Shown in pieces: positions 13,441 to 59,343 of a DNA stretch of 64,000 nucleotides. The notes beneath the pieces are model-generated. The model worked only from the letters and a program-made list of their open reading frames with translations. It ran no database searches and was not told the DNA's origin. Both the position numbers and the translations under genes were made by a program. Each line of letters opens with the position of its first letter. Within the stretch, counting starts at the first letter, position 1. Source of the stretch: Lepraria neglecta (Eukaryota > Ascomycota > Lecanoromycetes > Lecanorales > Stereocaulaceae); the NCBI GenBank assembly GCA_033220425.1, contig JASNWA010000001.1, positions 37,625-101,624 of the forward strand. The letters run 5' to 3'.

Positions 13441-13546
13441 TCCTACTGTAGCGAATTATTTATTAAAATTAATTTAAAATATATATATTAAATCTTAATC
13501 CCTTTTAATCTTCTTTATTTTATTATATTCTTCCTTATTTATTTTT
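13441..13546. other. G-poor AT block (segment 2), left flank of the giant TIR element
   Basis: This is a 105-bp T/A/C stretch, nearly G-free, between the DIRS relic and the left TIR of the Plavaka-like element. Its composition matches the flank beyond the right TIR at 30727. Confidence 0.55.
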
Positions 13547-13565
13547 CATCGCGCTTTCCCAAAAG
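13547..13565 (+). repeat. Left terminal inverted repeat of the Plavaka-like element
   Basis: CATCGCGCTTTCCCAAAAG; exact inverted match to 30708-30726. Confidence 0.8.
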
Positions 13566-14000
13566 ATTATATCATTAGTGTCACAGCTAGTTTTGCGCTA
13601 TCAGCAGGCCGCATGGCGATCAGGGTCTGCATCCCATATCGATTGCGGACCGAGAAATCAGCCAAATCAGTAACTCGAGGTTGCCGACAGCAGCATCTGC
13701 AACCTCAAATTGCTGCGCTGGGCGCCTATAACATCAGTATCAAAAGTTGCTTTCGTAGACCAACGCCACCATTGCGCATTTGTTCCGGAATGCGAAACAT
13801 ATGCGCTCAGGTAGTACATCGACAACATCAGTAGATGAGAAGTCATCCGAGTCGGATAGTTCGGACACATCCTCCGCTGTAGTGGGTATATTCGAGTCGG
13901 ACATCTTATCTAGAATTAACCTGCAGGCAGTATTATCCGAGCTAGGCGATTTTAAAAGATAATGCGATAATCATTTTCATATTATACGTTTAATAGCTAC
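13566..14000. other. Left subterminal region of the Plavaka-like element
   Basis: This stretch is GC-balanced. A 60-codon plus-strand frame (13780-13962) is Ser/Asp-rich ('KSSESDSSDTSS', 'FESDILS'). It includes two CCGAGTCGGA-type motifs (about 13847 and 13892) that are read as Glu-Ser-Asp. It could be a C-terminal exon remnant or non-coding subterminal sequence. Confidence 0.35.
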
Positions 14001-16777
14001 ATATTCGATTACTAACAGCTTGATTCCGTTAGGCTTCCTCCCGCCCAAGCTTTATACTCTATTAATCCATTCTCTATCCCCTCCGTAGTATCCTTAGCAG
14101 CCTAGTCCTCAGGTTCTTCTCCTATTGGAACAATATTCAGATATACTGTTTTATCCTCTATAATCTACCTCTCTACCGACCTACTCTACTCTTCGACGTC
14201 TATAATATAATCCTCTTCCTAAAGACTCTTATCTGCTCGTAGGCCGGCCTCCTTCTGTATACGCTCGAAGTCCCATATTGAAAACACCTGGATATCTGTT
14301 ATCTCCGCTGAATTATTACCGAAGGTAAGGGAAGCGAAAAAACTATCCTGGTTTCTAAACTCTGAATTGGTCTCGTCGAGACCCTCCTCAGGAGATAGTT
14401 CTTTAGCCTTAATTTCAGTATTAGCTAATAATACATGCCTATAATCGCTTCTTATATATACCGCATATTCTTTATCATTTCCGTACTCTTCTTCTTAGCC
14501 TATTATACCAGTATCATTTATTCCTATCTCCTCTAGAACGCTCTGAAGGTCCGGTTAATTTTTCAGATCTTCTAGGGAATCCTTGAACATATTGGTGACT
14601 GGTGGTCGATAGTTCTTACTATGCCTATTCGTATAGTAGTGGTCCATTATTCGACGATAAAGTAGTCCCGCAACTATCCGCGTTTTGATTTCACCTATAT
14701 TGTACTATACCTCTATTATATATTCGAATATAGCTCAAGGTATTATCAGTATATAGGTTATTCTTTGAGTATCAGGTTGACTTACTACTAACTAATATAC
14801 CGTCCTATCTCTTGATCCTACGGGAGCCATATTCATATTCTTCGAATATATAATGAAGCGCTGTTATAACGAAAATAATAGTACCAGTAGGTAAAGGTTT
14901 CTATAGATCTGTACTCTTATGCCTGAGTCTAATAGCGCTTATTCTATTAGAAAAAAAACGCGATATAGACTTATTATAATTATCGGTACCAGAAAATAAC
15001 CCTTATCTTAGACCTGTTAGCCATATATTTCGTTCTCGTTTAGGAAAGAAGAATACTTGTACCTTTCTCTAGATCTGCGAAAGTAAATCGCATATCAAAT
15101 AGTAGGTTCGATATATTATTCTTCCGGTCCTCGACTATTAGGTATAGCTATTCTACTACTATTTTAATAGTTAATCTTATTTTCCTTATTATAAAACTTC
15201 TGAATTCGCTTAGGCTATCTATAAGCTGCGAAGATGTTAGCTATTACGCGGCGTTATATAAATAGGTAGGGGTTTAGGAGTAATAACCTTGCGAGCTTCT
15301 TCAGGAGTTAGTATATTACCTAAGGTATCTAGATCGCCGATAACTTGAGGCCCCTTCGTTCTTTGGAGCTTAGCCTTCTATTCTCTCTATATTCTTATTA
15401 TAAGGTTACTCAGAGCTACCGGGTTATATTCTAGCCACAGTGATAGGCTATCGGTATTATTGCCGCCTATAATCTTAGAGAGGAATGTAGGCTTCGTTGC
15501 GTAGAAAATATGTTGATGTTCCCGTAAGGATTGGTATCTTTGCGCTTGGCGACGCCTAGAACTACCCTAAGCGATAGGTCCCGCCGCCTCCTCCGCGGTT
15601 ACCTCCTTATAGTCGTCTTCAGATTTAATATCCGATGTATATATAGGTGTAGGCAACGAAGTCGATAATGGTCTAGGCCTTGTCTTTTTAGATGATAGAA
15701 CCCGATTATCAGGATTAGATGATCGTCCCGTAGTCGCGGTACTGGAATTCGGCCGCTTGCGCCGTGTAGGTGGTACGGTGCGGGTTGGCTGTCGCTACTT
15801 ATATTGCACCGACTATAACGATCAGTTATTGTAAGACCTATGTGCTGAGGTAAACATACTATTGATTCATCCTTCCGTCTGCTGATTAGATTCTCTCTCG
15901 ATTTTCGATGTTTCTTACTAGCAGATTTAAACTTATCAGTTGTTGTCTGTTAGGGCGTCTAGGTGGGTCGTCCGGCACGCTGGCCATTCTGCTCTGTATA
16001 TGAAGATGTTCGGTTTTATTGTTCCTGCACTATCGGCTGTTTCAGCTATATTTGATGAATACGCGTCTCTAATTCATCATTTACCGAGCTGCGTAGGTAG
16101 TTCCTAGTGTCTATATTCCCTTGAGGACCTCGTTTTATTATATAGTTCTGTATTGTTTCCTTCTTTCTATATTAGCGTATTGAATATACGTGTGACGTTG
16201 ATGGGCAACTTACGGTCTTCTTTTGGGTAATACTCGTATCGCTTTGTAATACGGTATCGATTCTAGACGTCGACGGCCGCGTCTGTTTACGCTGTACGGT
16301 CAATAGGTTATATCTATTATCACACACTAATCGTACTTACAACGGAGAAGCCCATCTTTTCCGTCTCCTAAATATAGAGTTATCCAACGGACCGAATATA
16401 GGAGTGTAGGGAAGTCATACCCCTATAACGATAGCAGGCACTGGTCTCTTCGCAGGGCTGGTTATAGGGTTATTAGAAGATATTTCGATGTCCTCGACGC
16501 TGGTTATCTTTAAAGAGACCTCTTCTTTACGTGTTTTTTTAGAGATATCCTCGCTAAGGTTACTATTACGTCTTCGACGTTTCCTAGGCTCTACTACTCC
16601 GTCGTCCCCTTCGGTACTTCTCTCGGGTTCTGGCTGCTTTTCTTTAATGGCCTTAATCTACTAATATATTAATATATAGAATAAGTTACTCGGTTCGAAT
16701 CGTACCTTTCGCTTGTTCGCTTTGGTCTCCTGGGCTTTTCTAGTAGCTACTAGTCGTTCTCCCTTTATCTTAGCCAT
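14000..16777 (-). pseudogene. Unidentified gene inside the Plavaka-like element
   Basis: I do not recognise this protein. On the minus strand an ATG at 16775-16777 starts a basic protein ('MAKIKGERLVATRKAQE', then 'VEPRKRRRRNSNLSEDISKK') that stays readable for several hundred codons, interrupted only by TAG and TAA. Later stretches include 'LREHQHIFYATKPTFLSKII', 'GDLDTLGNILTPEEARKVI' and a Gln/Lys-rich region. Expected length is roughly 800-900 residues. The basic, low-complexity first third suggests a nuclear DNA- or chromatin-associated protein, but that is inference. It points the same way as the two helicase relics upstream. The 3' end near 14000 is approximate, and possible introns were not resolved. 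Confidence 0.45.
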
Positions 16778-16849
16778 TATCAGAAGATCTCTATTATCTA
16801 TCTAATATATACATGGGTCTTTACTAGTAACGAGGTGGTATAAGGTATT

Positions 16850-17750
16850 AAGGAGTATGATCCACGACGATATAGCTGGTTGTAGGTAGCTGGACGGGCG
16901 AGGTTCTCAGGGGAAGAAGGCGAAGGTTTTCAGAAAGGGACAGGCTTCTTTAGCGTGTTATTGTCGTATTGTTTTGATTAATATAATATTAATATAAAAT
17001 CGAGTTAGCTTAAAGACTATTAACTGAGTCGGATAGAAACTTAGCCGAGTCGGACAAAAGTCTGTCCGAGTCGAACGAAATTTTCCTACCTTTTCGAACA
17101 GGTTGCTACTAGGACTATATCTCTAGCTATAGTTCTCCTACGTATAACGAATATCGCCGTTTCTTCTATATCCTCGACGAGTACACGCCGCCTCCGCCCC
17201 ATTGGCCCGGGACCTCAAGACCTCAGATACCACCTACTCGAGTATCTATCGATGAATATATGCGGAGCCGGACTCACTGGATTCGCGTTAATAATATATA
17301 CTTTGCCGCCGGCTCTTGAGTTGTACGGGTGGGATGTAGAGTTACGTTATCAGCTTAACCGATTGAATTAGTTCTTCGACTTGGTTAATAATGATTAGAT
17401 ACCTCCTTCCATTCATAACACGTCCTATAAAGAGAATCTCTACTAGCGGATACATATTGAGTTAGCGGAACTATATCCTCTGTAGCGGCGACGGCGTTTG
17501 GATTTGTTGGAGAAGACGAATCTAGGTTGGGAAAAGCGGCGGGTAGTGTTGGCTGGGTCTTTATAGCGGGATTCTGGGATATAAATATCATGTCGGTGAC
17601 GTTGAGTTGAATAGTATGGCTTCTCTAGTCTCCAATTCGAATGACGGGGTCTACTATTTACAATATTTAAACTAGTCCTCAAATTTGCTGCTGGCAATAC
17701 CTATAGGTTGATTCTGTTATATTATACCTACTCTTACTAAGAGCTTTCTA
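16850..17750. other. Intergenic interval within the Plavaka-like element
   Basis: It separates the unidentified minus-strand gene from helicase copy 1. At 17024-17075 there are three GAGTCGGA-like motifs in about 50 bp, upstream of the unidentified gene's start. The plus strand at 17150-17600 holds proline-rich and charged readable stretches ('YILDEYTPPPPHWPG', 'LDLLEKTNLGWEKRRV') broken by TAG and TAA. This may be a small extra relic, which I cannot identify. Confidence 0.35.
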
Positions 17751-20700
17751 TCCGCCTATCTAGATAATAATCGAATCAAGATCCCTTTGCCTTATCCAGA
17801 AATGTACCGTACTCGTATACCTTCTATCTTTACTATTACTACCGAACGACCCGCCCACAGCATCAAATCCTATAGTACTTTATCTAGTCCGCATCTATAT
17901 TTACGCTTCTAGAGGTACGGGTAAGGGTAATACCGGTTTCAAGAACGCAGTTCGTAGGGGGAATAAAGTGATGATGGTTATCTCCTTGGCATATCTGTAC
18001 GAACAATTCATCTCGTTTCCCGGAAGGTAAGGCTGAGCCACGCTATAGTCATTTATCAGGATAATACCTTTTAAACTACTAGAGTAAGGTTAGTGCGAAG
18101 CCAAGGCGAAATAGCGGAAGAGCTATAGACCTACTATCGCCAGAATATATACAGTAGTAGATGGCTTGGTAATCATAGACAGTTGTTGCGGTCTTCCGAC
18201 GATGTCCTCCCTTAGTTTAACGATCAAATCCTTCAATACAACCAACTTCGGACTATTGTCAACAAAATATTCGATGTGATAGATATAGATGCTAGCCAGC
18301 GGGTATTCAGTCTAGTCTTCTCTTAGATTAGCCAACTCTGCAAAGTTCGTGCGACCCTCGCCGCCGTTATATGAATCCCCCCTTCGAGCTTATCCGTATG
18401 TGGAGATAGGTCATCGAGCCGAGCGAATCCCAGAAGGCTTGGGACTATAGTAGCGGCGCGTAGTTCATATATACGTTTGAAGTGGTTAGTAGTCGTTGGC
18501 GCAGGTATCTCCTTGCTAGCCTTGCGAGCAATTACGTATTGTCTAGTATATTTTACTTTCGCTTTGTCTTAGATCCTTTGATCCTCGGTGCGAAGAGCTA
18601 TATTTTATACTGGCGAAGGCGGGTATATAATATAACGAATCTTGTAGGGAGGTAGTCATACTAGATCGGTAGTCCCAGAGATATCTTGAGTGTATAGCGT
18701 CCGCTTTATGTCGATTATCTTCGTCTACTATTGTAACCAATTGCCTACTACTTTCGCTGGCACGATAGTAAGAATAATGCCTGACTTCGCTGCGCTAATA
18801 TTCCGGGTGGCGCTGTTCTTGACACACGGATAACTGACATTCCATTTGTGAGCCGATAGATATACATCGTAATGACTCCGTGGCTTTAATCTCTCTAGCG
18901 AGAGATGCTTGTTGTAATAAGGCGACGTTTCGAATTGTTGGATGATTTTGTATATATGGATTTCGATCTAGATGGAGTCGGACGTTGGCGTTGCCCGAGT
19001 CGAACATCTGTATTGTCCGAGTTGACTAGAGTCCTTGATAGAAGTAATAATTCAGTTTAGACATCCCCAAACTAGAATCTCGCCCGTAGATGGCTCCCCC
19101 CTATTAGAAAGCCTGCTGTCTTATCCAAGCCGCGTAGTATAGCTGATGAATAAACGGTACGATCTTCTTTATTTTGCCGTTGGGGGCTGTAATAGATAAT
19201 AACCCACGGAGGTTTCGTATATTCTGTATAGACCGGTTTCCCTTCTGTAGCTGAAATAATGACTCTATGTACCACTACGTTTTCTGAGACTATTACGGAC
19301 AGTCCTCTACCTTGGTTATATTAATACTAGGGTAGTATTTAGTAGTAAGCAAACAGTAAGGCAGAGGTTAAAGCACTTATATCCTATCGCGATCCTCCTG
19401 TTCTAATACCTCCAGATCTTTCGCAGCTACTCTAGCTACTACTACCCTACCTATCTCGATATTATATAACTTCGGAACCCTACTATTATAGGCCTTGCTA
19501 ACCTTTAACGCCTTCTCCTCGTCCTCTTCTATAGTATCCCCTTCCTCCTCTTACTCCTTCTCTTCCTAATTACTGGTATAGCTACCGTTATTTATATTAG
19601 AACGGATAAGTATAGGATCGTTTGGAGGCCGGGTGGGAAATACCAGTAGGCTTGCTTGATTGAGGGGGAGAATTCATAAGGCTTTGGGGCGGGGAATTTA
19701 GCGGGAGAGGTGGTAGAGTCTTTGCGTAGAGGATTCTGTGTATTATAGGTTATATTCTTAGGTTATACCGTAAGAGAAGAATATCTAGCCTAGTAAGGTT
19801 ATATAGAGGTATAATAGGGATAGTAATAATAGGAAGAATGAAATACAAAGAAGTAGAGGCCCTTCGCTAAGTTGGAACGAAGAAGAATACTAGAGTGCGT
19901 GATTTAGTGGTATCGGCGTACCGTAATTAACTGGGTTTACTAATATACCGCGGAAACGGACGTGAGGTGTGCCTATTGTTCAATATTTCACGCGGGCCTA
20001 CTGTTTTACTGGAGTATAGTTAGTAGGAGTACGATCGAAGCAAAGCATGAGATACGTACCTTATAGGCGCGTCTTAATATGAAACGAGATAGGATTCTCG
20101 CCTATATTATATATCTGTAAGGCAGCCGCCTTGAATTTACGGGCGTGATCAACTTCGACGTCGTTTTTGCCAATACGACAAAGAATTCGGTCGGTCGAGC
20201 TATTATAGATACCGTCCTCGCGCAAGACCTCTTTAAATATTCTAAATTCGATCTCGTCTAATATAATACTGGCCAGAGGTTTTTTCTCCTTAATAATATC
20301 GGAGGCGAAGAAAAGCGTATTCGCCGTCGTCTCTGTTGACCGGATATAGAATCCTATTTCACTGAAGGTAAGCGGACGCGCTATATATAGAGTACTATCT
20401 GTAGAGAGAGACGGTATAGTACGCCTTCTGCGATTGCGATAGTGATTGTAGGTATTGTTAATCTTTCTGGCCATACCCAATTTGTAACTCTCCAGCTAGG
20501 GTTAGGGGATTCTAGGTGTGAAAACGGAGGGAAATACTGTTTCTAACTGCTGTAAGGCCTCGCCGAGTTTAGCCTGGTTCTCCGGTGTCCCTAGGGACGT
20601 GCCAACGATATGTCTCCTTTCTATCTCTTTCTTTAATACTGCTCGAATCTCCTTATAGTAGGCCTGTTCGACTATAAGGCCACGCGAAATAACCGAGACC

Positions 20701-20830
20701 GTCCAATTCCCGGGGTTAGTATTTTCGTAGAATTCGGTAGAAGGTGAAGAGGCTAGAGAGGAGGGGAAAACGTCGGCGGTGACGGCTGCGGGCTCGTACC
20801 GGTGTTCTATAGCGGGTATATATATAATAT
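17750..20830 (-). pseudogene. SNF2-like helicase, copy 1, internally deleted
   Basis: This is a paralogue of the downstream helicase copy in direct orientation. Minus-strand matches to copy 2 include 'VHRVIISATEGKPVYTEY', 'IIYYSPQRQNKEDRTVYSSA', 'ARKASKEIPAPTTNHFKR' and, in the C-terminal helicase lobe, 'LETGITLTRTSRSVNIDAD'. Relative to copy 2 about 665 bp is missing: sequence matching 23243 is joined to sequence matching about 22575. That removes the motif II region, so this copy could not be an active ATPase. The N-terminal part (20061-20830, 'YYKEIRAVLKKEIERRHIVG', 'LDEIEFRIFKEVLREDGIYN') is diverged but similar in layout to copy 2. TAG and TAA stops are frequent. Confidence 0.55.
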
Positions 20831-20839
20831 ATAGAGTGT

Positions 20840-21500
20840 TGATTGATACGTCGGTAGTAAGAGAAAGGAGTATAGGAAAGGATTAAAAGGTCGATATATA
20901 ATATATAAAGAATAATTCCGTACTAAGCCTATAGTAATTAGCGTGTAATAAGCGATGTCTGACTCGAATGCCAAGTATATCAAGCGCTGTTCGACTCGGA
21001 TATCGAGAGTTATCCGACTCGAACACTATCTGATGCTCGATATTGTTCGACGCGTAGGCTGTTCCCTATACAGTATCTATATTGAGTGTAGGTATGACTA
21101 CTTGACTTTCGAGTGGGTTTCTCCCTTTATTTAATAATGGTCTTAGTTGAAAGAGTCTGTATTAATAGAAGGGTATTACAAGGAAGATCGTAACTTAAGA
21201 CAATACGTTACAAAGGAGCATAGTAGCGTATATAGTTCGTATCAAATACGATCACAATCTAGCAAGTTAGGGCTATAAATTATATTCCCTTTTACCTACA
21301 GCTTGTATTTAGTATATAAGTACGTAGTATATCCAGATTTTGGTGGCGGATATTCAAGGAAGACTACAGCGCGAAATATCTACTAAAGATAGGAGAAAGC
21401 AAAGGGGAATAGCTAGTAATCTAAGTACTTTCAAGTCTTCCCGAACCAGTATAGATTAGATTTAATATTACTGTAGAAGGGTAATAAGAGTCTTATATCT
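20840..21500. other. Spacer between the two helicase relics
   Basis: AT-rich, with no gene seen. Three CCGA(G/C)TCGG-like motifs cluster at about 20950-21030, upstream of helicase copy 1. Confidence 0.4.
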
Positions 21501-24500
21501 ATCTTATACGAAGTTAAAGCACCGCCGAGCAGAAGAAAAGAAACCCGTAAAAGCGCGCTATTGCTTAGCTAGAAATATCTAGCTTATTCATACGCCTATT
21601 GCCTCGTTATGTTATCTCTGCTCTGTTTGAATAATACCTTCTGATCTACTCTATGTTCATCGTCCGTAATGAAGTAGTAGTTGTACGTCTTTGGATTTCG
21701 CTGAGATAACCGAACTACCCGCCTATCGTACTGAATATTATAGAATTGTATCCAGTCTGTATCTATATTCATACTTCTGAATGTATGGGTCAGGGTAATA
21801 CTAGTTCCAAGGATACGTTTCGTAGAGATAAGGAAGCGCTTGTCATCCTCTTCTTGGAATGGCTGTATATATAACTTATCTCGCTTCTCGGAAGGTACGG
21901 TCGAGCTATACTATAGCCATTTACTAGGAAAATGCTTTTTAAACCAATAGAGCAAGGTTAGTACGAGGTCAAGGTGGAATAGCGGAAGAGATGTAGACTT
22001 ACTACCGCCAGAATGTATGCGATGACAGGAGAACTGGTGAATATAACCAGTTTCTCTGGTCGCCCGTAGATGTCTTCCCCCAGCAAGCCGATTAACTCTT
22101 TGAGTTTCACTAACTTCGGTGTATTACTGGTGAGTTTATCGATATGTTTAGTATAAATACTATCCAGCGGTATCTTGGCCCAATTCTGTGTCAGGCTAGC
22201 CAACTCTGTAAAATCTGTGCGACCCTTTCCGCCGTTATATGAAGGCCCCCCTTTAAGCTCGTCCTGAGTAAGAGTGAGGTGGTTACGCCGAGAGAATTCT
22301 AGAAGGCTTGGGACAATAGTGGCAGCGCGTAGCTTATGGGCGCGTTTGAAGTAGTTGTTGATCGCTGGCGTAGGTATCTCCTTGCTAGCCTTGCGAGCAA
22401 TTGCGTATTCTCTGGCATATTCGGCTTTTGCTACGTCTTGGATCCTCTGATCCTCGGCGCGAAGAGCTGCCTTTTACTCTGGATTAAGTAAGTATATAAT
22501 ATGACGAGTCTTGTGCGGAGGTAGCTTAATAAGCTCGGTGGTCCTATTAATATCTGTAGTTATAGGCGTCCGCTTGATTTCGATAGAGTTTAAGATAGCC
22601 TTTATATCTGCGATATTCTTGTTATTCTCGCTCTTATTAACCGGATTCTTTCGCTTTCGGTAGCTAGCGGTTAGTTTCCTAACAACCTCGACTTCGTCGT
22701 AAGTTATATATTGATACTCTTTAACGGCGTACCACCAAGGCTGCTCGATCATACAGATTATAGCTGAGTAGTTAGTCAGGTCGCGTGTCTACGGTATAGC
22801 GGAGAAACCCTATACCCAGGGCAAAGATGATCGGTATGTTTTTATACGCCGATTATCTATAGTATTCTACTCGTTCTCGTTATCCTCTGGTATTTTTACT
22901 AGGACTCGGGTACTAATCTCATCCTTGATGCCAAGGACTATCTTGGGATATTCACCCTTTACTGTCCTTATCTTATGGAACTCGTTAATAAAGATCTAGC
23001 CGATACGGAAGTTGTAGACGAATGGATACTCAGAGTCCTGTAGTACTTCCTTGATATGCCTATTATATAAGCCCTTAGTCGTAAGGAGTAGAATATACTC
23101 CTGTCCAGGTTTGGGTTTTCTATCCTTTTCATATCGAAGTAGTTCAGCATTTTCCGATGTGAGTGGGGTAGCGTTAATATTATTGTATATTTTGCCTGTA
23201 TAGGCATAGAAGCACCGTAGCTTCAATGTTGGATATTGAGTGTCGATTATCTTCGTCTACTCTTGTAACTAGTTGCCTATCACTTTCGCTGGTATAATAA
23301 CAAGAATAATACCTTGCTTCGGTACGCTAGTTAAATAGGCGGCGCTTTTCTCGATACACGGATAACCGATATCCCATTTATTAGTAGAGGGACATATATT
23401 ATTACCGCTCTATACCTTTAATTTCGAGGGTGGGAGATACTTAGTATAATAGATTGACGCTTTAAACTGTTCGAGATTTTTATAATCCTACTTGCGTATT
23501 TCGAAAACCTCGCGCTATCGCAAGGAGAGTTAATACTCGAGGATATATATGATAAAAATCGTCAGAGTCTAGTTCGAGTCGGATATCAGTATTGTCCGAG
23601 TCGATAGCAGGTTTTATTAAAAGCTAGGAATAGATACGAACCTTGCTAAAGCCGGGATCGTCCCTATTAATGCCCCCCCCTGCTAGTAAGCACGCCGGCG
23701 TATCCAAGCAGCGCAGTAGAGTTGATGAATATATGGTGTAATCTTTTTTATCTTGCCGTTAGGGGCTATAATGGATAATAACCTACGGAGGGTTCGTGTG
23801 TTCTTAATAGACTGGTTTCCCTTCTGCAGTTGGAATAATAACTCTATGTACTACTACGTTTTCTGAGACCATTACGGACGGTCCTCTACCTTGGTTATAT
23901 TAACGCTAGGGTAGTATTTAGTAGTGAGCAAATAATAAGGTAGAGGCTGAAGTACTTATATCCTGTCGCGATCCTCCTGTTCTAACGCCTCTATATCTTT
24001 CGTAGCTACTCTAGCTGCTACTACCCTACCTATCTCGATATTATATGACCCTAGAGTCCTGCCTATATGGGCCTTATTGATCTGTAACGCCTTCTGCTCG
24101 TCCTTATCTATCAAATCCCCTTCCTTTCTATTATTCTCTTCCTTATTATTTGTACCGCTACTACTATCCGAGCTAGAGCTAATATCTATAGGCTCCTTTA
24201 GATTCCCGGTAGACGGACTAGTATACTTATTAGTAAGAAGGGAAGGATCGACGAAAGGCTTTAGGGTAGAGGGTTTGGTGGAAGAGGCAGCAGGGTCTTT
24301 GCCTGGAGGATCCTGTGTGTTAGGGGTTTTCCCTTTAGGTCCTGCCGCAAGAGAAGAATGTTTTAAGCGGTGGGAGAGGGTAAAACTGCCTCGGTAAGGT
24401 TGATTTGGATGGGCCGTATTGCCCTCGATGGATACTATTACACCTGTCAGTTAATATCCTGACCATTAATTGACGTGGTATGACTGACGGAGTGCCCCTC

Positions 24501-25287
24501 GCACGACATAAAGCTCGTAGCGCCGGTAACCACGTGAATACATGTCGCGGATAGCATTTTGTAGATCTTCGTTTGTAGTTACCTCCATAATCCTATTGGA
24601 TATATAGATGAGGGTGCTCCCCCGGGCATCATCTTCGGCGGTCCAGAATTTCTTGGTTTCTAGGAACTGGATCAGAGTATCGTAACTGAGTTGGTCCCAG
24701 AGCTGGTTGGCGTTAGTGAGCGAAGTATCACGTATGATATACCGTAGTTGGACAAGATGGAATTTATCATCGCGCGTATAACCGATTCTAAGGATGATAT
24801 AAGGCGGGTAGGTGTCGTCTAGGGCTAGAGCTGGTGCGAAGAATGGTCCAGTGTAATCGGGTTACTCAGTACAGGTATTATCGTGTCTGGGCTTTTTTGA
24901 ACTGAACGAGTTGTGAGACTCCTCTAAGGGTCGTTTGCTAGTACGTCGGTTGGCTACTCTAGGTACTTCATTAAGTAGTCTTGCGAATATACGTATTACT
25001 TCGTCTCTGAAAGGTAGTGTATGGTCGGGTAGAATGAAGTTAGTGGTAACGGAGTTGAGGACCTTGGTGAAGTCCTGGCCAGAACCTCGAAGATTTTCGC
25101 CCTAAATAGCGGTACCCCGCAGGCGGTCTTCAAGCACTTGACGGAGGGCATTGAACAAGCTATTACTGTACCGTAAGCCTCTACGGACATTGGGGAGGTT
25201 CTATGGGATTCCAGGCGGATTGCCAGACTTTGGCCTGCCAATAAGCGTATAGAAATTGGCCTCGGTTGGCGCAGGCTCTGGCGTCAT
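21500..25287 (-). pseudogene. SNF2-like helicase, copy 2
   Basis: This is a probable superfamily 2 (SNF2-like) DNA translocase. From the ATG at 25285-25287: an N-terminal region with 'TEANFYTLIGRPKSG' and 'SYDTLIQFLETKKFW'; a disordered Ser/Pro/Thr linker (about 24400-24150); then helicase lobe 1 with 'PKQGIILVIIPAKVIGNWLQ' (motif Ia-like), 'TSENAELLRYEKDRKPKPGQ', 'INEFHKIRT' (DEAH-like motif II with D to N) and 'LPWVWGFSAIPQTRDLTNYS' (motif III-like). Lobe 2 has 'EKLVIFTSSPVIAYIL', 'STKRILGTSITLTHT' (motif V-like) and 'YDRRVVRLSQRNPKTYNYYF' (motif VI-like). I could not find a clean Walker A; the expected place reads 'CIEKSAA'. Stops are TAG or TAA, with at least one frameshift. The 3' end is approximate. 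It may assist transposition or chromatin access, which is inference. Confidence 0.6.
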
Positions 25288-25289
25288 AT

Positions 25290-26235
25290 CGACCTGAGGG
25301 TCGATCAGAGAAGGACCGGCTATATTAGATAATGTTGTAGATGATTCTGACGCGTCTATAATAAGAAGAATAATGATAGGACGAATAAAATAGGGAGAAG
25401 TTAAGGATTCTTCGCTGAGTTGGAGGGATAAAGCAGGTAATACGACTAGTAGGGTCTATACCGGGTTTTTATTCACAACAGCGATTGGTCGGTAGTCAGT
25501 GAATATAATACCAGTAAGGTAAATATATTACGAAATAGTTCAACACTTAATGCAATTAGGCGATATAGACCCTTCTCTGTAGAATAGCACGTCGGAGTAG
25601 TTATAAGCAGGTAAGTTTAGCCGTCGAAAGATTGAAAGCAGCGAGCTTTAATATAATAGATAAAGATATTGATTGAAAGCGGAACTTATGTATATACAGT
25701 GCGTAGAAAGCGAACAGCTGATTTCAAACGTACTGCATCTAGCTTTATACTTAATACCCAATGTCTAGTAAAGATAGAGTGTCAAAACTTATTATCTGCT
25801 CGTAAAGATTGATTAGATTTCTTCTTCCGTTCTTCGAAATGTAAGTCTTAATCAAGTACTCTGTTATAAAAACAATCCAAGTTCGACTCGGACGTACATT
25901 TTGGTAACAGGGGTATGTACCGCAAGGTTTGTGACCAATTATATTTCCTAATGAGATAAGTAACCGGGGCGTTTATTAAATATATCGTACAGAAAGAAAA
26001 TCCCCTTAAACCATCTATTAATCAACGCCTTCTATAGGATGATACTCTACTGTATATATATTGTAATTTGATTGATAGTAACGGTTAAAAACAGGCTATG
26101 TGAGGCGACGTGAGGATAGATTTATCCTAACCTATAGCGGGTTAGCTTGAAGGATCTAGTAGCGAATATGTTTACTGATACCTGCCTGGACGCGTTGATC
26201 TCGATAATAACACCTCTATATTACGCCCGAGCCAG
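25290..26235. other. Divergent promoter interval between helicase copy 2 and the transposase
   Basis: This ~0.95-kb AT-rich interval separates two divergently oriented genes. It holds one GTTCGACTCGGACG motif at about 25880. No gene is seen. Confidence 0.4.
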
Positions 26236-29200
26236 ATGGATCGACAGTGTAAACGTTACCAGAAGCAGTGCAGCAGCGGAAGCGGCCTAACTAGGCATCT
26301 ACCACGCTGTAAGGGCCGGGACCCCAATTGGACGCGCAGGAGACAGGTACGCCTCGACGAAGATGAAGTCGAGGGCCCTATTCATGAACGCTAAAGAGAC
26401 GAGGTCGACGTGATCGGCGATAGTCCCCGTGAGGGCGAAGGTAGATGAGTCCCCTAGGAGGACCTGACTATTTTAATGGATAACGATGCTCCAGGGCGAT
26501 TGCTTGAACTTACCGACTCTACTAACGAGATCTGGCACCAGCAAGATAAGCTAGATATAGTACTCGATCAATCGAAGTCGATAACGGCGTCAAGTGCCAT
26601 AGGCACTATCTCTACCTTGACCGTTAGCTCTGTGGAGTACTACCTACAGGAGCGAGGTGCCGGGAGGCCTTTAGAGGAAGAGGACATAACCCTGGCCGAG
26701 TCGTTGTCCATGCCCCTGTCCGAGTCGATGTCCGAGTTGATACCCGAGTCGAACCCGGACTGGCACCCTTTCTATTCAGAAGCTGATTATGCCCTGGCTT
26801 TATGGATGTATGACGCCCGACTGTCTAGCGGTGCAATAGATAATTTCTTCAAAGATACTCGATTACGACCTTTCTACGGACCCTGCAGCTTTAACAGCGC
26901 TCTACAACTAAAAGCCAAGCTATATACCATAAATCATTCTGCTGCTACCAGTGGATGGTCTCGGCAAGCGTTTAGTGTCCCATCGATTCAACCGGACGAG
27001 ATGACTAGAATATATTATATACTCTACTTCGACATAATGGGTATAATACGAACTCTCATCGGATATAAACCTTTTAATTCGAGTATTAACTATATACCGA
27101 TACGCTAGCGAAACCTCGACGGGGGTCTGATCGTTAGTGAGATGTGCACAGCCCGCTGGTGGTGGGAGACATAAGATAAGCTCCCTGATGGCTCAACAGT
27201 GGTACCGGTTATAATATCGTCAGACAAGACCCATTTGTTACGGATACACGGAGATTAACAGGCGTGGCCAGTCTATATTACTATCGGTAACCTCGATCGA
27301 GGTATTCGGCGGGTACAGGTTCGGCCGGGGATGATATTGCTTGGACTGGTGCCATTAGTCTATAACAGTGTGAAAGCCGAGGTGTATTACTACGCTATAG
27401 GGCTTATGGTCGAGGGTAAGCCGGCCGAAATACGGATCTTACTTAATATACTAATAATACTCTTTTAAAGTACTTAAGGAGCTGGCGCCGAAGGGGATCC
27501 TTATTATATGTGTAGACGGACGAATACGACGATACTACCTAATACTCGCGTCTATGCTAGGCGACTACGAGGAACAAGTTTTGATAACCTCGATCAAGAG
27601 CGGTAAACACTATCCGGTCTACTTGGTACCGCTAAATGAACGGGAATGACTACGTCCTGAAAAACCGTATCCAAAGCGAACACCTGAATAGACTATAGAG
27701 TAGTTATAGATGCAAAAAACGTACGATAAGAATACGCCCAGGGTGTTACTGGATATGATAGTATATAACCGGCCCAACTTCACAGACGGCTACTTCGCAG
27801 TTAACGTCTACTAACTATAGACGTTTGATATATTATACTAATTAATGGTTAAAGGGCTATTGAACTACCTCCTGGACTGGCTTAGGGAGTATGTCGGAGA
27901 GGGACGAACAAAGCTTGAGGTATAAGCCTTAATCGACGCCCGGTTTCGAGCTATACCTAAATTCACTAAGCTGAGGCGATTTCGGGAGTTTAGTAAGCTG
28001 AGCCAATGGATAGGAGAGGAGAGCAAAGAGATGTTATAGATTATAATACCCGTCTTCGCTCCTCTATTGTCCGAAAAAAACCCAGATATACTATATACAG
28101 GACGAGCTATTGTTGACTTTATTATGCTTGTAAGATACTGATCCTACGACGAAGCGATACTGGAATATATGAACGTAGCGTTGGAAAGGATTGATCTACT
28201 CAAGGAGGTATTTCGAAAATACAGGCCAGTCAATAAGAAAACGGGCGAGCAAACTTTCAACTTTCCCAAATTCCATAGTATTAGTCATTATATTAATATG
28301 ATCAGATACTACGGTCCGCCGGATGGATACAGCACCTAAGCCTCGGAAAGGGCACATCCGATATTGCTAAAGAATTACTATAACCGAACAAATAAGTATA
28401 AGGATTACTAGGAGCAATTGATGGAATATAACGAACGCCATGTTAAGTTAATAATCATGCGGGATATTAAAAATTTCTAAGAGACGGAGCCTGTGTCACT
28501 TAGTTAGAGGAGAAAACAAGAAGACGAGAAAAGTATAAAGGCCGGGGTCCTCCTAGATCTATACTAACTAGGATGGCGAGTAGACGCGGAAGAGCGCTAT
28601 ATGTTAAGATACCTATATAAATGCGATAGTCGTTACTGGCGAACGGCGAGAGATGTGGCTGAATGGCTGAACATAGCTGGGTTTCTCCAAAGCCTGGCTG
28701 CGTTTCTTAAGGCGCACCGAGCGAAAACGCTAAGCAGAGGTAGTACAACCTCGAACCTAGATATCGATAGAAGGGAGGCAGACTGTAGCTGGGTTGAGAG
28801 CTACCCGGTCTGTATCTATTCGGGCCTTGTATGTTGGAAGACTACAGGAGAGGACTCCTCTGATTTGGGACGTCTCTATAAGGATTTGGTGGTCTGCAGA
28901 CCTTATAAACATTCGCAGTATTTTACCTGGCGCAGAGATTACGTATAGGTCCGAGAATAAGACTATAAGAGTCGAAACCCGGAAACTACACAGGAGGGAA
29001 AGTTGGTTAGCAAGGTCTTGGTCGTCGTAGAGGTAAAGGATCTTAGTAACAGGGACTTTAAGCAACGACCTACTCGTATACAGGCTGCCCTTGTAGAAGT
29101 CTTTGATTATCGACATCTGGGGCAGGTACAAGACTACTATAGAATGGTCGAAGTTGAAAAGGCACGGGCGTCGCTTGTACTTAATCCTCGAACGATAGGC

Positions 29201-29412
29201 GCTCGCCGCTTCTATAGACTACTAAATATCGAGCGAAGTACTTATCTGGTACCGGGAACGGTTAGAGGAAAAGAGATATTCTATATTAACAGTTTCATCG
29301 ACTGGGACCAATACACCACGATATATCACCCTAAATTCCTAACAAACAATTCTAAGGCAGCGCGACGAATCCACGCCAAATTCCTACTAAATCCTTCTCA
29401 GGCAACGCTATA
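26236..29412 (+). pseudogene. Plavaka-like transposase
   Basis: This is the transposase of a fungal cut-and-paste DNA transposon. The ATG at 26236 gives an N-terminal zinc finger of the family type ('QKQCSSGSGLTRHLPRCK') whose second Cys is now Tyr. The clean stretch 26476-27108 holds 'DARLSSGAIDNFFKDTRLRP' and 'LIGYKPFNSSINYIPIR'. Hallmarks follow: 'EMCTARWWWETQDKLPDGS' (TAG at Gln), 'PVIISSDKTHLL', 'AWPVYITIGNLDRGIRRVQ' and 'CVDGRIRRYYLILASMLGDY'. After a frame change: 'LIDARFRAIPKFTKLRRF', 'FNFPKFHSISHYINMIRYYG' and 'ASERAHPILLKNYYN'. At least one frameshift lies between about 27450 and 28600. Length (~1050 codons) suits the family. Assignment is from remembered family patterns and is fairly confident. 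Confidence 0.8.
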
Positions 29413-30480
29413 AACCTAAGTAAAAACCCTTAAAAGGAAGAGAGATAATACTATAAATATATCTGGCTCGATAGAGCGGAAGAGACGCTGCTACTAACCG
29501 CCCTCGCCGCGTCTAAAGTCAAGGCTTTAGTCTTAAGGAAAACCTCTAATATAAAGAACCAACCTACAGTTTCAATTACCGTAGCGGTATCAATCCTCTC
29601 TTCGGCATATTTAATCATAGCTATATCACGTTAGCAGGCTACATAGTGTCTTACGCGTGCAATATTTGCTTACTTCAGTATCGAGTCTACGGCCCTCGCA
29701 CGTTACTAATATTCGGGTACTTCGGTAAGCTGAGGAGTAGGGAGGTTATTAAGCTCGCGGTATCGTATATGAAGTCTATCGGGGAAGACAGGGAGCAAAT
29801 TCGTCGGATATTGAGTATCTATAGCAACACTTTGCTGAAATAATAGCGACGAGACCGCAAACTACGAGAAGAAATATTGAGAAACGTCCAGCCAAATATT
29901 CATCCGACTCGGACAGGGCAAACCCGAGTCGGACACTACTCGGACAGTGCAAAACCCGAGTCGGACACTAATCGGACAAGGGCAAAAAAGGGCGAAATAC
30001 ATGCGCCCCTGATCTACTGGAGTTTTGCCAGGTGCCGCTGACAGTTCGGTGACTAGGCGTCGCAACTCTCTATCTCGGTTATTTACTCGAATTGTAAGGA
30101 GTAGAAGATATAGTCGGATTGGCGGATGATGGGTCGTTACAGAATCGAGGAAAGCGTGGTTGAATAACCCGTAAAGAAGTTGAAGAAGGATTAGTATGAG
30201 CGCGAGTTAAACTTATGTTGATATTACTGATAACGAGCTTTTATGTACTGAAGGAGCTGTCGGCAGTGGCTATGTTTCAAACGGATTGTACATATGGAAG
30301 ACTTTATTTAGATTCGACTGCCTACTTACATCTTGCATAGAAGATATACAGCCACTAATTAGTAGAAATGTATAGACTATATGAGAAGTAATCAATCATA
30401 ATAAAAGAAAACTGGCAGCTGTATATTAGCAGCGTTGTATTATTGATTGAGCTGACAGCTGGCTGAACGCATAATGGACA
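29413..30480. other. Right subterminal region of the Plavaka-like element
   Basis: It follows the transposase. A 65-codon plus-strand frame (29646-29843, 'LRSREVIKLAVSYMKSIGED') is readable but unidentified. The tightest cluster of the CCGA(G/C)TCGG motif is here (29903-29980). Confidence 0.4.
29903..29980. repeat. Cluster of CCGA(G/C)TCGGACA motifs
   Basis: Three full copies (one as CCGACTCGGACA, two as CCGAGTCGGACA) and two partial TCGGACA copies lie within about 80 bp. The core is a 9-bp near-palindrome. Other copies occur at about 13847, 13892, 17024-17075, 18986-19022, 20950-21030, 23572-23607, 25881 and 26695-26760, all inside the element. Confidence 0.7.
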
Positions 30481-30481
30481 T

Positions 30482-30681
30482 GCTAATTGGTTAGACATTA
30501 CACTGACAGTAACATCTAATTGCTGATTGGTTATACATTATTCTAACAGCAACATCTAATTGCTAACTGACCTAACATCGTTAAATCAGCAGTATTGAGT
30601 TGCAGATCGAGCTGATTTGATGCTGTTAGCAACATTGAGTTGCTGATTCCGCTGAACGTAACTGTCAGCCCTACCGGCGCG
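30482..30681 (+). repeat. About five imperfect 40-bp tandem repeats at the right end
   Basis: Units start near 30482, 30522, 30562, 30602 and 30642, with the pattern GCTRATTGGTTA then ACAGYAACATCTAATT. The first two are close; later ones are diverged. They sit just inside the right TIR, as subterminal repeats do in many DNA transposons. Confidence 0.6.
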
Positions 30682-30707
30682 CTCGGCAACTCGGGATTTC
30701 CCAGCAA

Positions 30708-30726
30708 CTTTTGGGAAAGCGCGATG
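30708..30726 (-). repeat. Right terminal inverted repeat of the Plavaka-like element
   Basis: CTTTTGGGAAAGCGCGATG; exact inverted match to 13547-13565. Confidence 0.8.
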
Positions 30727-30980
30727 TTTAATAATTTTATTAAAATCTATTTAACTATTTAATTCTTATTTTTTACCTAAATTATTTATATTCTTTAAAT
30801 AAATAACCCTGAATCCTCTTTTATAATTATTAATTTCTAACTTCTAATTTATTTATTATAATCTATAATTTAATTACCTATTAATATAACTTCGGGAAAC
30901 TAAATTAAATTATTTAAATTATTATTTTTTATAAAAATCTCCTCTATCTTTACTCTTATTTTCTCTAATAACTTTTTTAA
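30727..30980. other. G-poor AT block (segment 3)
   Basis: T/A/C-rich with few G. It continues the composition of the flank left of the Plavaka-like element. No gene. Confidence 0.55.
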
Positions 30981-31766: not shown

Positions 31767-32160
31767 ATTAATAAATCTAAAAACTACTCGATTCTATTTA
31801 TTATCTAAAATATTCGATTTCTTTCTTATTTCTCTTTATATTTACTCTTTTATAATTTTAATTTTTTATTATACTTTACAAGTGAGTGCCCGTAATCTTC
31901 ACAGAAGATTACCGTAAAACGGATATATCTCGCTTATTTTATATTCTATTTAGAAAATTTAAGCGAAATTAGAAAGTAATCTATCTATAGTATTGAATTA
32001 TAAGCTTACCTATAACTTTATATAATAGCAACGGTTTTGGTATATATAAGAGCTGGCTATTTAGATAGCTCTAGGATACAGAAATAATCTTTGAAGCTTT
32101 GCATGGTTTGGATGGTTCCAGGATACTTTTCGCCCCCGGAAGCCATTGGAATGCCCCCGG
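31767..32160. other. G-poor AT block (segment 4) and left edge of the minisatellite unit
   Basis: It is G-poor to about 31880. Then comes a short hairpin (GTAATCTTC, ACA, GAAGATTAC at about 31892-31912) and AT-rich sequence up to the minisatellite. Confidence 0.45.
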
Positions 32161-32164
32161 AACG

Positions 32165-33045
32165 AATAGGCAGCATACCGCCATATCGCCATATGCGAAT
32201 GAGCAATCCGGTGCCATATCTCCATGTGCGAATAGGCAATCTACCGCCATATCGCCATGTGCGAATAGAGCAATCCGGTGCCATATCTCCATGTGCGAAT
32301 AGGCAATCTACCGCCATATCGCCATGTGCGAATAGAGCAATCCGGTGCCATATCTCCATGTGCGAATAGCCAACCTGCCGCCATATCGCCATGTGCGAAT
32401 AGCCAATCCGGTGCCATATCGCCAACTGTGCGAATAGGCAATCTACCGCCATATCGCCATGTGCGAATAGGCAATCCGTCGCCATATCGCCATGTGCGAA
32501 TAGAGCAATCCGGTGCCATATCTCCATGTGCGAATAGCCAACCTGCCGCCATATCGCCATGTGCGAATAGCCAATCCGGTGCCATATCGCCAACTGTGCG
32601 AATAGGCAATCTACCGCCATATCGCCATGTGCGAATAGGCAATCCGGTGCCATATTTCCATGTGCGAACAGGCAACCCAGCGCCATATCGCCATGTGCAG
32701 AATAGGTAATCCAGCGCCATTTCGCCATGTGCGAATAGGCAATCCGTCGCCATATCGCCATGTGCGAATGAGCCACCCGGTGCCATATCGCCATGTGCGA
32801 ATAGGCAATATATCGCCATATTGCCATATGCGAATAGGCAATCCGGTGCCATATAGCCAACAGTGCGAATAGGCAATCCAGTGCCATATCGCCATGTGCC
32901 GAATGGGCAATCCTATGCCATATCGCCATGTGCGAATAGGCAATCCGTCGCCATATCGCCATGTGCGAATGAGCCATCCGGTGCCATGATCGCTATATCG
33001 CCATGTGCGAATAGGCAATCCGGTGCCATATCGCCATGTGCGAAT
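32165..33045. repeat. 33/34-bp minisatellite, about 26 units
   Basis: The unit is close to CGCCATGTGCGAATAGGCAA followed by TCYRSYGCCATAT. Most units are 33 bp, some 34. A higher-order block of about 170 bp (several units) is repeated at about 32327-32460 and 32497-32630. Because 33 is divisible by three and the unit lacks stops in several frames, long spurious frames appear on both strands (11-residue repeats such as 'MAIWRRIAYSH'). Confidence 0.9.
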
Positions 33046-56852: not shown

Positions 56853-56908
56853 CGATTACTATAGAAATAGTCGATAAATAAATAATAAAAGAATTATAAC
56901 TTATTACT

Positions 56909-57027
56909 AGAATAATAGATACGAAAAGGAGGAAATAGTTAAACTTTTTATAAAGAATAATAGATGATTAGAATTAGAAATTAGATATTAGATATTAGAT
57001 ATTAGAAGTAGAAATAGATAGTAGATG

Positions 57028-57081
<54 letters not shown>

Positions 57082-57182
57082 AGTAGGAATAGATAGTAGA
57101 TATTAGGAGTAGGAATAGATAGTAGATATTAGAAGTAGGAATAGATAGTAGATAGTAGATATTAGATATTAGAAGTAGGAAT

Positions 57183-57213
<31 letters not shown>

Positions 57214-57295
57214 AGTAGAAATAGATAGTAGATAGTAGATATTAGAAGTAGGAATAGATAGTAGATAGTAGATATTAGATATTAGAAGTAGGAAT

Positions 57296-57326
<31 letters not shown>

Positions 57327-57582
57327 AGTAGAAATAGATAGTAGATAGTAGATATTAGATAGTAGATATTAGATAGTAGATGTTAGAAGTAGGAATAGAT
57401 AGTAGATAGTAGATATTAGAAGTGGGAATAGATAGTAGATAGTAGATATTAGAAGTAGAAATAGATAGTAGATAGTAGATATTTGTGGTAGGAATAGATA
57501 GTAGATAGTAGATAGTAGATATTAGATAGTAGATGTTAGAAGTAGAAATAGATAGTAGATAGTAGATATTAGAAGTAGGAAT

Positions 57583-57620
<38 letters not shown>

Positions 57621-57780
57621 AGTAGAAATAGATAGTAGATAATAGATTAGAGTTAGAGTTAAAAGATAGTAGATAGTAGAAAGTAGAAATAGATAGTAGA
57701 TAGTAGATAATAGAAGTAGGAATAGATAGTAGATAATAGATTAGAGTTAGAGTTAAAAGATAGAGTTTAAATTTAATAAA
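56909..57780. repeat. TAGATAG-type heptanucleotide satellite
   Basis: Long runs of GATAGTA units alternate with ATTAGAAGTAGGAATAGATA interruptions in a semi-regular pattern. It begins where homology with the left arm ends. Confidence 0.9.
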
Positions 57781-59305
57781 AGAATAATATTAGAAGATAA
57801 GTTATTAAGAATTATAAGAAAAAGAAAAAGAAGAAGAAGAAGATATAAATAATAAAGAAGATACTAAAGAGAAATATATTTAAAATTAAACTAAAGAGTT
57901 AAGATATTAGATTATAATAAAATATTAATAAGAATTAAGAAAGATTTAAGCTAAATTTAAATAAAATTAGAGTTAAAAGCTTAGGATTAGGGTTTAGAAA
58001 GATAAAAGAGTTAGAATTAGGATTTTAGGATTAAAATTTAATAAAGAGGTTAAATTAAAGAAAAATTATAAAAAGAAAAAGGATTAAATAGAGAGGAGCT
58101 AAAAAAGAATTTAGGAGTTATAGAAAAGATTTAAGAATAATAGATATAATTAAGAAAATAGATATAAAAGATTTATATTATTTAAAATTTAGAGGTTAAA
58201 GTATATAAATTAAAAGATAAGTAATTAAATAAATAGATATAAGATAGAAGTTTTAGATTTTAAGAAATAGATTAATATAGAGGTATTAGAGTTTAAGAGT
58301 TTATAGAAAATAAGAATTATAAAAGACTAAATATAAAGAAGTAAAGGAGTAAATATAATATTTTAAATAATAAATTAAATAGAATAGATTATAGGTAAAA
58401 TTAATTATTATAGAAATTATTAAAAGAATATAAAAAAGGAGATAAAGGAGGTAAATTTAGAAAAGATTTAATTTAAATAATTTTATTTTAAGTAGAAAAA
58501 GAGATTATATATATTAATAATTAATTAAAAGATTATATTTAAATAATTTTAATTTAATTTAGAATCAAGAGGTTATTAATATAATTTATTTTTTATATAA
58601 TAAATAATATTTAGGGTTAAGAATATTAATTATATTTATTTAAAGAATATAAATAATTCGAGTAAAAAAGAAAATTTTATAAATAATATTAAAAGAGAGT
58701 TAAGTTTAAGTTATTTTATAAATAATTAGACTAAATATTTTTAGAATATTAGATAAGTTAGTAGATTTAGGAATTAAAATATATTAATTAGAAGAGAGAG
58801 AGTAGATTTTAGTTTTATTAGAAGTAGAAATAAAAGAAAGAGAGTAGATAGAAATAGAAATAGAAATTAAAGAGGAATAAATAGAAATAGAAATAAAGAG
58901 TAAATAAGTAGAAATAAGATTTAGAGAGGAAGAAATTTTATTTAAATAAAGATTATAAGTTTAATATATTTTTTAAAGATTAGATAGATAAATATATATA
59001 TAAAAATAGAGAGAAAAGATTTAAAAGTAATAAGAATTAAATAAAAAAAGAATATAAAAAGAAATTAAAGTAGATTAGAAATTAAAAAGAGTTAGAAAAA
59101 GGAAAAAAGAAGATTTTTAATAAAAGAAGAAAAGGTTTTAGAGATAGAAATTAATAGAAATTAAAATTAAAGGGTAAAATAATAGAAAGGATTTAGAATT
59201 ATATAAAGAAGAATTAAATTAAAGAGAAAGAAAGATAGATAGAAAAGAGATTATTTATTTATAAAATAAAAGTTATTAGAGGTTATAAGATTAGATTTAT
59301 TAAAA
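57781..59305. other. C-poor, purine-rich AT block
   Basis: About 1.5 kb in which the plus strand is A/T/G with almost no C, the strand complement of the G-poor blocks between 8.8 and 34.2 kb. It includes isolated telomere-like words (TTAGGGTTTAG at about 58008, TTAGGGTTAAG at about 58613). No gene. Confidence 0.6.
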
Positions 59306-59343
59306 TCTAAAGTCTTGGGCAATGCCCGTCTGCCCTCACGGGA

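Follow-up and report, generated by a model that had tools for sequence, protein, structure and literature searches.

The genome of Lepraria neglecta holds a high-copy, dispersed family of large DNA transposons, one copy of which lies in the stretch of DNA analysed here, a window of 64,000 nucleotides (G000, C9:37625-101624; assembly of 42.0 Mb in 11 contigs). This copy measures 17,180 bp, is bordered on both sides by perfect 19-bp inverted repeats, and is very probably a large cut-and-paste transposon of the Plavaka lineage, with ends nearest to those of PlavakaB, in a filamentous fungus active in repeat-induced point mutation (RIP). It carries a Plavaka transposase and, as judged from uninterrupted relatives, two SNF2-like helicase paralogs (A and B), and these helicases stay with the transposase at a fixed spacing. 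The coordinates of the features are collected in Table 1.

The left border is formed by CATCGCGCTTTCCCAAAAG on the forward strand and the right border by its exact reverse complement, as the initial annotation of the window had proposed. Genome-wide, with up to two mismatches, this 19-mer occurs at 189 places (99 forward and 90 reverse), and a control pattern read backwards occurs at none. Longer probes, allowing up to three mismatches, gave 76 matches for the left end (38-mer) and 47 for the right end (41-mer); a convergent left end lies within 60 kb of 36 of the 47 right ends, 17 of these pairs are spaced at 17.1-17.3 kb, and wrongly oriented left-right pairs at that spacing number zero across the genome. 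Two more pairs of terminal inverted repeats (TIRs) spaced at 17.1-17.3 kb, at C2:1141749 and C5:1984092, have left ends beyond the limit of the probe. The search for paired ends at about 17-kb spacing and the profile search of the transposase, both suggested in the initial annotation, therefore bear out its TIR-bounded Plavaka element. Ends apart from the internal genes, which had been named there as a finding that would count against such an element, do occur, but as derivatives of about 0.6 kb that look non-autonomous. This family, which resembles miniature inverted-repeat transposable elements (L068, L069 and L070; 577-625 bases from position 101), has 116-146 bp in common with the left end of the element, may account for a good part of the surplus of left ends over right ones, and has two members (L068 and L070) nested inside 17-kb copies.

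The transposase is assigned to Plavaka by its profile match, its D-D-E residues and its H(3)H motif. In the window copy, Pfam PF18759 is matched at 26914-27357 and 27464-27883 in two frames (106.6 and 48.6 bits, respectively; cut-off 26.3), and the relative P0001 reaches 221.1 bits against the same profile. All three D-D-E residues are present in the window copy and in at least 90% of a 22-row alignment, and the H(3)H motif lies between the second D and the E. The hallmarks SDKT, AWPVYITIGN and SERAHP reported earlier are likewise present, although the gene that holds them is interrupted, its 973-residue reading containing 20 in-frame stops and one frame change. Relatives P0001 and P0002 stand at 51 and 48% identity, respectively, the best named relative comes from Letharia columbiana, and a near-identical uninterrupted coding stretch of the 3' part exists in public data. 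The predicted fold of an uninterrupted relative resembles that of RAG1, the enzyme behind the assembly of human antibody genes, and of Transib over residues ~183-750, with a matching D-D-E and H(3)H layout; going by this model, the traits of the CMCT group (RAG1/Transib-like predicted fold, 5'-CA..TG-3' ends and target-site duplications of 2-5 bp) are present together. Differences from Transib and RAG1 lie in the length of the transposase here (~1,050 residues), its N-terminal zinc-finger-like stretch (without a Pfam match at 26236-26394) and a target-site duplication (TSD) of 2 bp, that of Transib being 5 bp.

The TSD was counted over 21 paired insertions of 17.2-18.0 kb, 18 of which are flanked by an exact 2-bp duplication (mean of 5.1 and maximum of 12 of 21 in 2,000 shuffles); with one transition tolerated the count rises to 19, and a 3-bp duplication is found at one. 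The nested insertions L068 and L070, when compared with uninterrupted sequence, fit a 2-bp TSD once RIP-type transitions are allowed. The window copy itself splits a G-depleted repeat, which is why its flanks are G-poor, and the matching flanks described in the initial annotation are the two halves of this one repeat, which is continuous at three other places, near the ends of contigs C5, C7 and C11 (in the last, 4 kb from one end of a 26-kb contig). The comparison with uninterrupted sites that had been recommended thus yielded three continuous repeats that align across the element junction at 72-73% identity, but left the duplication at the window site unfixed because some 20 bp close to the junction are unaligned. 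One-sided base composition is also seen further along the window, where a 2.44-kb tract (56881-59320) has 16 C and 453 G on its forward strand; one-sided tracts of 2.0-2.5 kb lie also at L044 (C11), L045 (the end of C5) and L046 (the start of C7), and the element lies in a piece of one.

The linkage of helicase and transposase was counted for the best 40 of at least 116 helicase A matches and for 58 of 84 Plavaka rows, 26 second-half matches being left out. A divergent Plavaka gene lies within 20 kb of 36 of the 40 longest helicase A copies (a raw count, made without a random-placement control), and the spacing is 3,400-3,489 bp in 27 of the 40, so that the proposal that SNF2-like helicases travel with the transposase holds. 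Both paralogs stand head-to-head with the transposase, and helicase B is also seen in other copies of the element. With at least one further open stretch (19983-20882), the earlier count of three more genes inside the element is about right.

The helicase family is hidden from Pfam scans of the window by RIP and frame changes, and its assignment to SNF2 draws on uninterrupted relatives. A profile built from six helicase A copies led to P0027, P0028 and P0029 (81, 69 and 37% identity, respectively), which score 30.0, 25.5 and 39.6 against PF00176 (cut-off 24.9). SATP boxes are found in all three; the DExH box reads DEFH in P0027 and P0028 and NEFH in P0029 and the window. A profile of the uninterrupted relatives is colinear with six SNF2 domains from the same genome (92.8%, E 4e-7), compared with 0.2% for the transposase profile, and the C-terminal part of helicase A bears a sub-threshold resemblance to SNF2/Helicase_C. 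P0027 differs from the window at 95 of 512 residues, 83 of which are explicable by C>T/G>A changes, and a near-identical uninterrupted coding stretch of the helicase middle part exists in public data. The minus-strand frame at 21961-23514 (518 codons) has 7-28 stops per copy and none common to all 11 aligned copies. The length of the G-run near 23685, at a frame change, differs from copy to copy (10 of 11 could be read).

The alignment took in 11 copies, out of at least 19 that measure 17.1-17.3 kb; all 11 are heavily RIPed, with broken genes, and they are mutually 90-94% identical, the differences being almost all transitions. Variable columns number 3,511, of which 3,455 are restricted to C/T or G/A, and CpA sites are variable at 1,747 positions and invariant at 21, with 470 CpG, 866 CpC and 2,191 CpT sites invariant. 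One pair of copies is separated by 1,215 transitions, a single transversion and no gap, and was therefore nearly identical at the time of spread, RIP aside; among the 11, the window copy has suffered least from mutation, with the highest GC and the lowest composite RIP index. Since little other than RIP-type changes separates the copies, the family seems to have amplified recently and then to have been silenced by RIP. The near-identical uninterrupted stretches in other public assemblies mean that not every copy elsewhere is broken. The saturated CpA-type RIP, the relative in Letharia columbiana and the DUF3435 genes in the genome, a mark of such fungi, agree with the ascomycete setting proposed in the initial annotation, which is probably correct.

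Table 1. Positions of the transposon, its genes and its insertion site within the window.
Feature	Position	Strand	Remarks
Whole element	13547..30726		17,180 bp; genome-wide paired ends and alignment of 11 copies
Left 19-bp TIR (5'-CATCG...)	13547..13565	+	sequence match and end probes
Right 19-bp TIR	30708..30726	-	sequence match and end probes
TSD TT, left copy	13545..13546		a third T also matches at the window site
TSD TT, right copy	30727..30728		2-bp TSD count over 21 insertions
Left half of interrupted G-poor repeat	13447..13546		
Right half of interrupted G-poor repeat	30727..30926		
Plavaka transposase gene, RIP-damaged	26236..29413	+	parts 26476-27420 and 27458-29413; frame change near 27430-27458
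Zinc-finger-like stretch, upstream in transposase gene	26236..26394	+	by-eye match to the N-termini of P0001/P0004
First catalytic Asp codon (SDKT)	27223..27225	+	D330 of P0001
Second catalytic Asp codon (DYEEQ)	27563..27565	+	D443 of P0001; Asn in 4 of 11 copies
Catalytic Glu codon (SERAHP)	28346..28348	+	E704 of P0001
SNF2-like helicase A, RIP-damaged	21590..25110	-	frame changes at G-run near 23685 and near 22000; open stretch reaches upstream to ~25527
SNF2-like helicase B, more damaged paralog of A	17842..19786	-	tblastn pieces, 43-68% identity to A, E <= 0.002
Further open stretch, ~300 codons	19983..20882	-	stop analysis over 11 copies; no Pfam match; separate gene or N-terminus of helicase B
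Possible coding stretches	14222..15958	-	stop analysis; no significant Pfam match

Just beyond the element, the window holds a repetitive open frame built from short units (32057-32977), and no RNA family was found at gathering scores within the window. Contig C9 is small (101,624 bp), and the window runs to its end; the other contigs comprise eight of 4.5-6.3 Mb and two small ones.

Several observations weigh against this account. The ends, CATCG..CGATG, agree with the CATCA..TGATG of PlavakaB at four of five bases and are not identical, and it is for this reason that the element is filed as Plavaka with PlavakaB-like ends, not as PlavakaB. An exact 2-bp TSD is missing at three of the 21 sites. 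The C(2)C motif of the transposase, CPxC in P0001, P0002 and P0004, reads YPVY or YLVY in the window and the ten other copies, so that both cysteines are Tyr in 11 of 11, a replacement of the kind that RIP could produce; the fold model has a mean pLDDT (predicted local distance difference test) of 56, and in Foldseek it reaches a TM-score of 0.32 against RAG, taken by query length, at a root-mean-square deviation of about 9. As to linkage, four of the 40 helicase A copies have no Plavaka match in divergent orientation within 20 kb; of the 58 Plavaka places, 22 are without any of the 40 longest helicase A copies alongside, at least three of the 22 having shorter pieces; some Plavaka copies are fragments, members of other families or devoid of SNF2-A, and some unlinked matches are probably other Plavaka families of the same genome. 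Places without a linked long SNF2-A include C5:3423943, C2:5957183, C6:956773 and C3:227755, among others. With respect to the helicases, P0028 barely exceeds the PF00176 cut-off, P0027-P0029 cover the helicase middle only, and the Walker A stretch, outside that coverage, reads GFSKV in the window and GFGKV in some copies as against the canonical GKT. The damaged reading has no Pfam match, per frame or as a joined read-through; the damaged copies alone reach 1% against SNF2 domains in hhalign; and helicase profile A1 has no match among solved structures, a single reading giving weak matches (E 0.057 at best, four of five rows being SNF2 proteins). A protein search with the joined reading gave no match among 7,364 candidates, scans of viral-contig and genome-contig collections returned no relatives, and the SNF2 structure model (pLDDT 32.8) was not used for fold comparison.

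Plavaka/KDZ was treated as one group in the initial annotation, a grouping that does not stand given the 2-bp TSDs, the RAG1/Transib-like predicted fold and the statement that Plavaka is without sequence similarity to KDZ transposases and groups with CACTA, Transib and RAG1 (Kojima 2025, PMC12730594); membership in KDZ is rejected, TSDs being 2 bp here as opposed to 8 bp for Zisupton (PMC12730594). PlavakaB, reconstructed from Agaricomycotina, has CATCA..TGATG ends, TSDs of 2-3 bp and, in some families, TET/JBP genes (PMC12730594). The element shares with it the Plavaka transposase, 5'-CATC..GATG-3' ends, TSD length and possession of an accessory gene, and differs in its exact ends, its 17.2-kb size, its probable ascomycete host, its heavy RIP and its SNF2 helicases, no directed search for TET/JBP having been made here. 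SNF2 helicases are also reported for Inton and Enton transposons, other element groups compared here by description only (Bao and Jurka 2013, PMC3627910), and the helicase-bearing DNA transposons AcademH (TSDs of 9-10 bp) and KolobokH, found in fungi among other hosts, belong to other transposase superfamilies (PMC10799480, PMC10045372). The Plavaka giant repeats of Amoebidium are likewise large and combine a Plavaka transposase with extra genes, but extend up to 50 kb, form tandem gene clusters, in many cases carry tyrosine recombinases, and reside in an animal-related protist (PMC11244446). The combination of Plavaka with SNF2 appears new: no ascomycete Plavaka with SNF2 genes is named in the titles and abstract openings searched, which lie mostly outside subscription papers, and the print record may hold one.

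In the mechanism envisaged, a RAG1/Transib-like transposase would bind the element ends, excise the unit and join it to the target with a 2-bp stagger. The SNF2 proteins would most likely act for the element: they would open or remodel chromatin, displace the transposase or assist repair, and thereby let excision or expression proceed. Taken further, and tentatively, the element may be a two-part machine, in which a RAG1-fold transposase depends on SNF2 motors, obligate and encoded by the transposon itself, to remodel chromatin or the complexes at the ends and so let a 17-kb unit move, the SNF2 genes forming an old transposon-only branch that co-evolved with ascomycete Plavaka.

Alternatively, the SNF2 genes may be passenger cargo, a host Rad5-like helicase gene having been captured once between the ends and duplicated without acquiring a role in transposition, which is a serious possibility, if short of probable. 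It would suit the state of the window copy, where helicase B has decayed far more than A, the finding that P0029 comes closest to Rad5 among solved structures (although at E 0.28), and the RIPed repeat X3X3R8 of Stagonospora nodorum, whose tandem Rad5/SNF2-like helicases were interpreted as an endogenous gene cluster (PMC3017866). Nevertheless, a host SNF2 gene closely related to them did not come to light: of 41 PF00176 places none lies on C9, and the helicase A matches listed, at least 116 with 86 of 171 candidates scored, resemble copies of A or B at 39-100% identity. The relatives at 69 and 37% identity (P0028 and P0029), moreover, point to a lineage of long standing. SNF2 proteins act on chromatin, and the helicases could instead counteract silencing, as an SNF2 equivalent of the TET/JBP genes that other fungal transposons carry, an idea that we regard as conceivable but doubtful. 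TET/JBP enzymes borne by transposons, including some in PlavakaB, have been proposed to play such a role (PMC12730594), yet the element is heavily RIPed all the same. An SNF2-bearing element inserted into an unrelated Plavaka element, both then amplifying together, would suit the 22 of 58 Plavaka places without an adjoining long SNF2-A copy, but such a composite is improbable, since 27 of 40 copies keep a constant spacing, both genes have relatives elsewhere, and no second end pair was noticed around the helicase block, where no systematic search was made. A Starship, or some other giant element moved by a tyrosine recombinase, in favour of which the large size, the cargo, the probable filamentous ascomycete host and 36 genomic matches to DUF3435 (the Starship recombinase) might speak, is rejected with near certainty, as none of the 36 matches lies on C9 and the element has paired TIRs around a Plavaka DDE transposase and 2-bp TSDs.

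Read as a helicase-bearing Plavaka transposon, the element appears to extend a group detailed from mushrooms and their relatives to a RIP-active, probably ascomycete genome with SNF2 accessory genes, and its predicted fold lends structural support to Plavaka as a relative of RAG1 and Transib. Two questions are opened, namely what benefit a chromatin motor brings to the transposon that carries it and how quickly RIP brings the burst of a very large element to an end; both are testable because uninterrupted coding stretches are public and many RIPed copies are available in one genome. If the two-part machine is real, some of the RIPed clusters of duplicated Rad5/SNF2 genes reported from other ascomycetes could be what is left of such elements, so far unrecognised.

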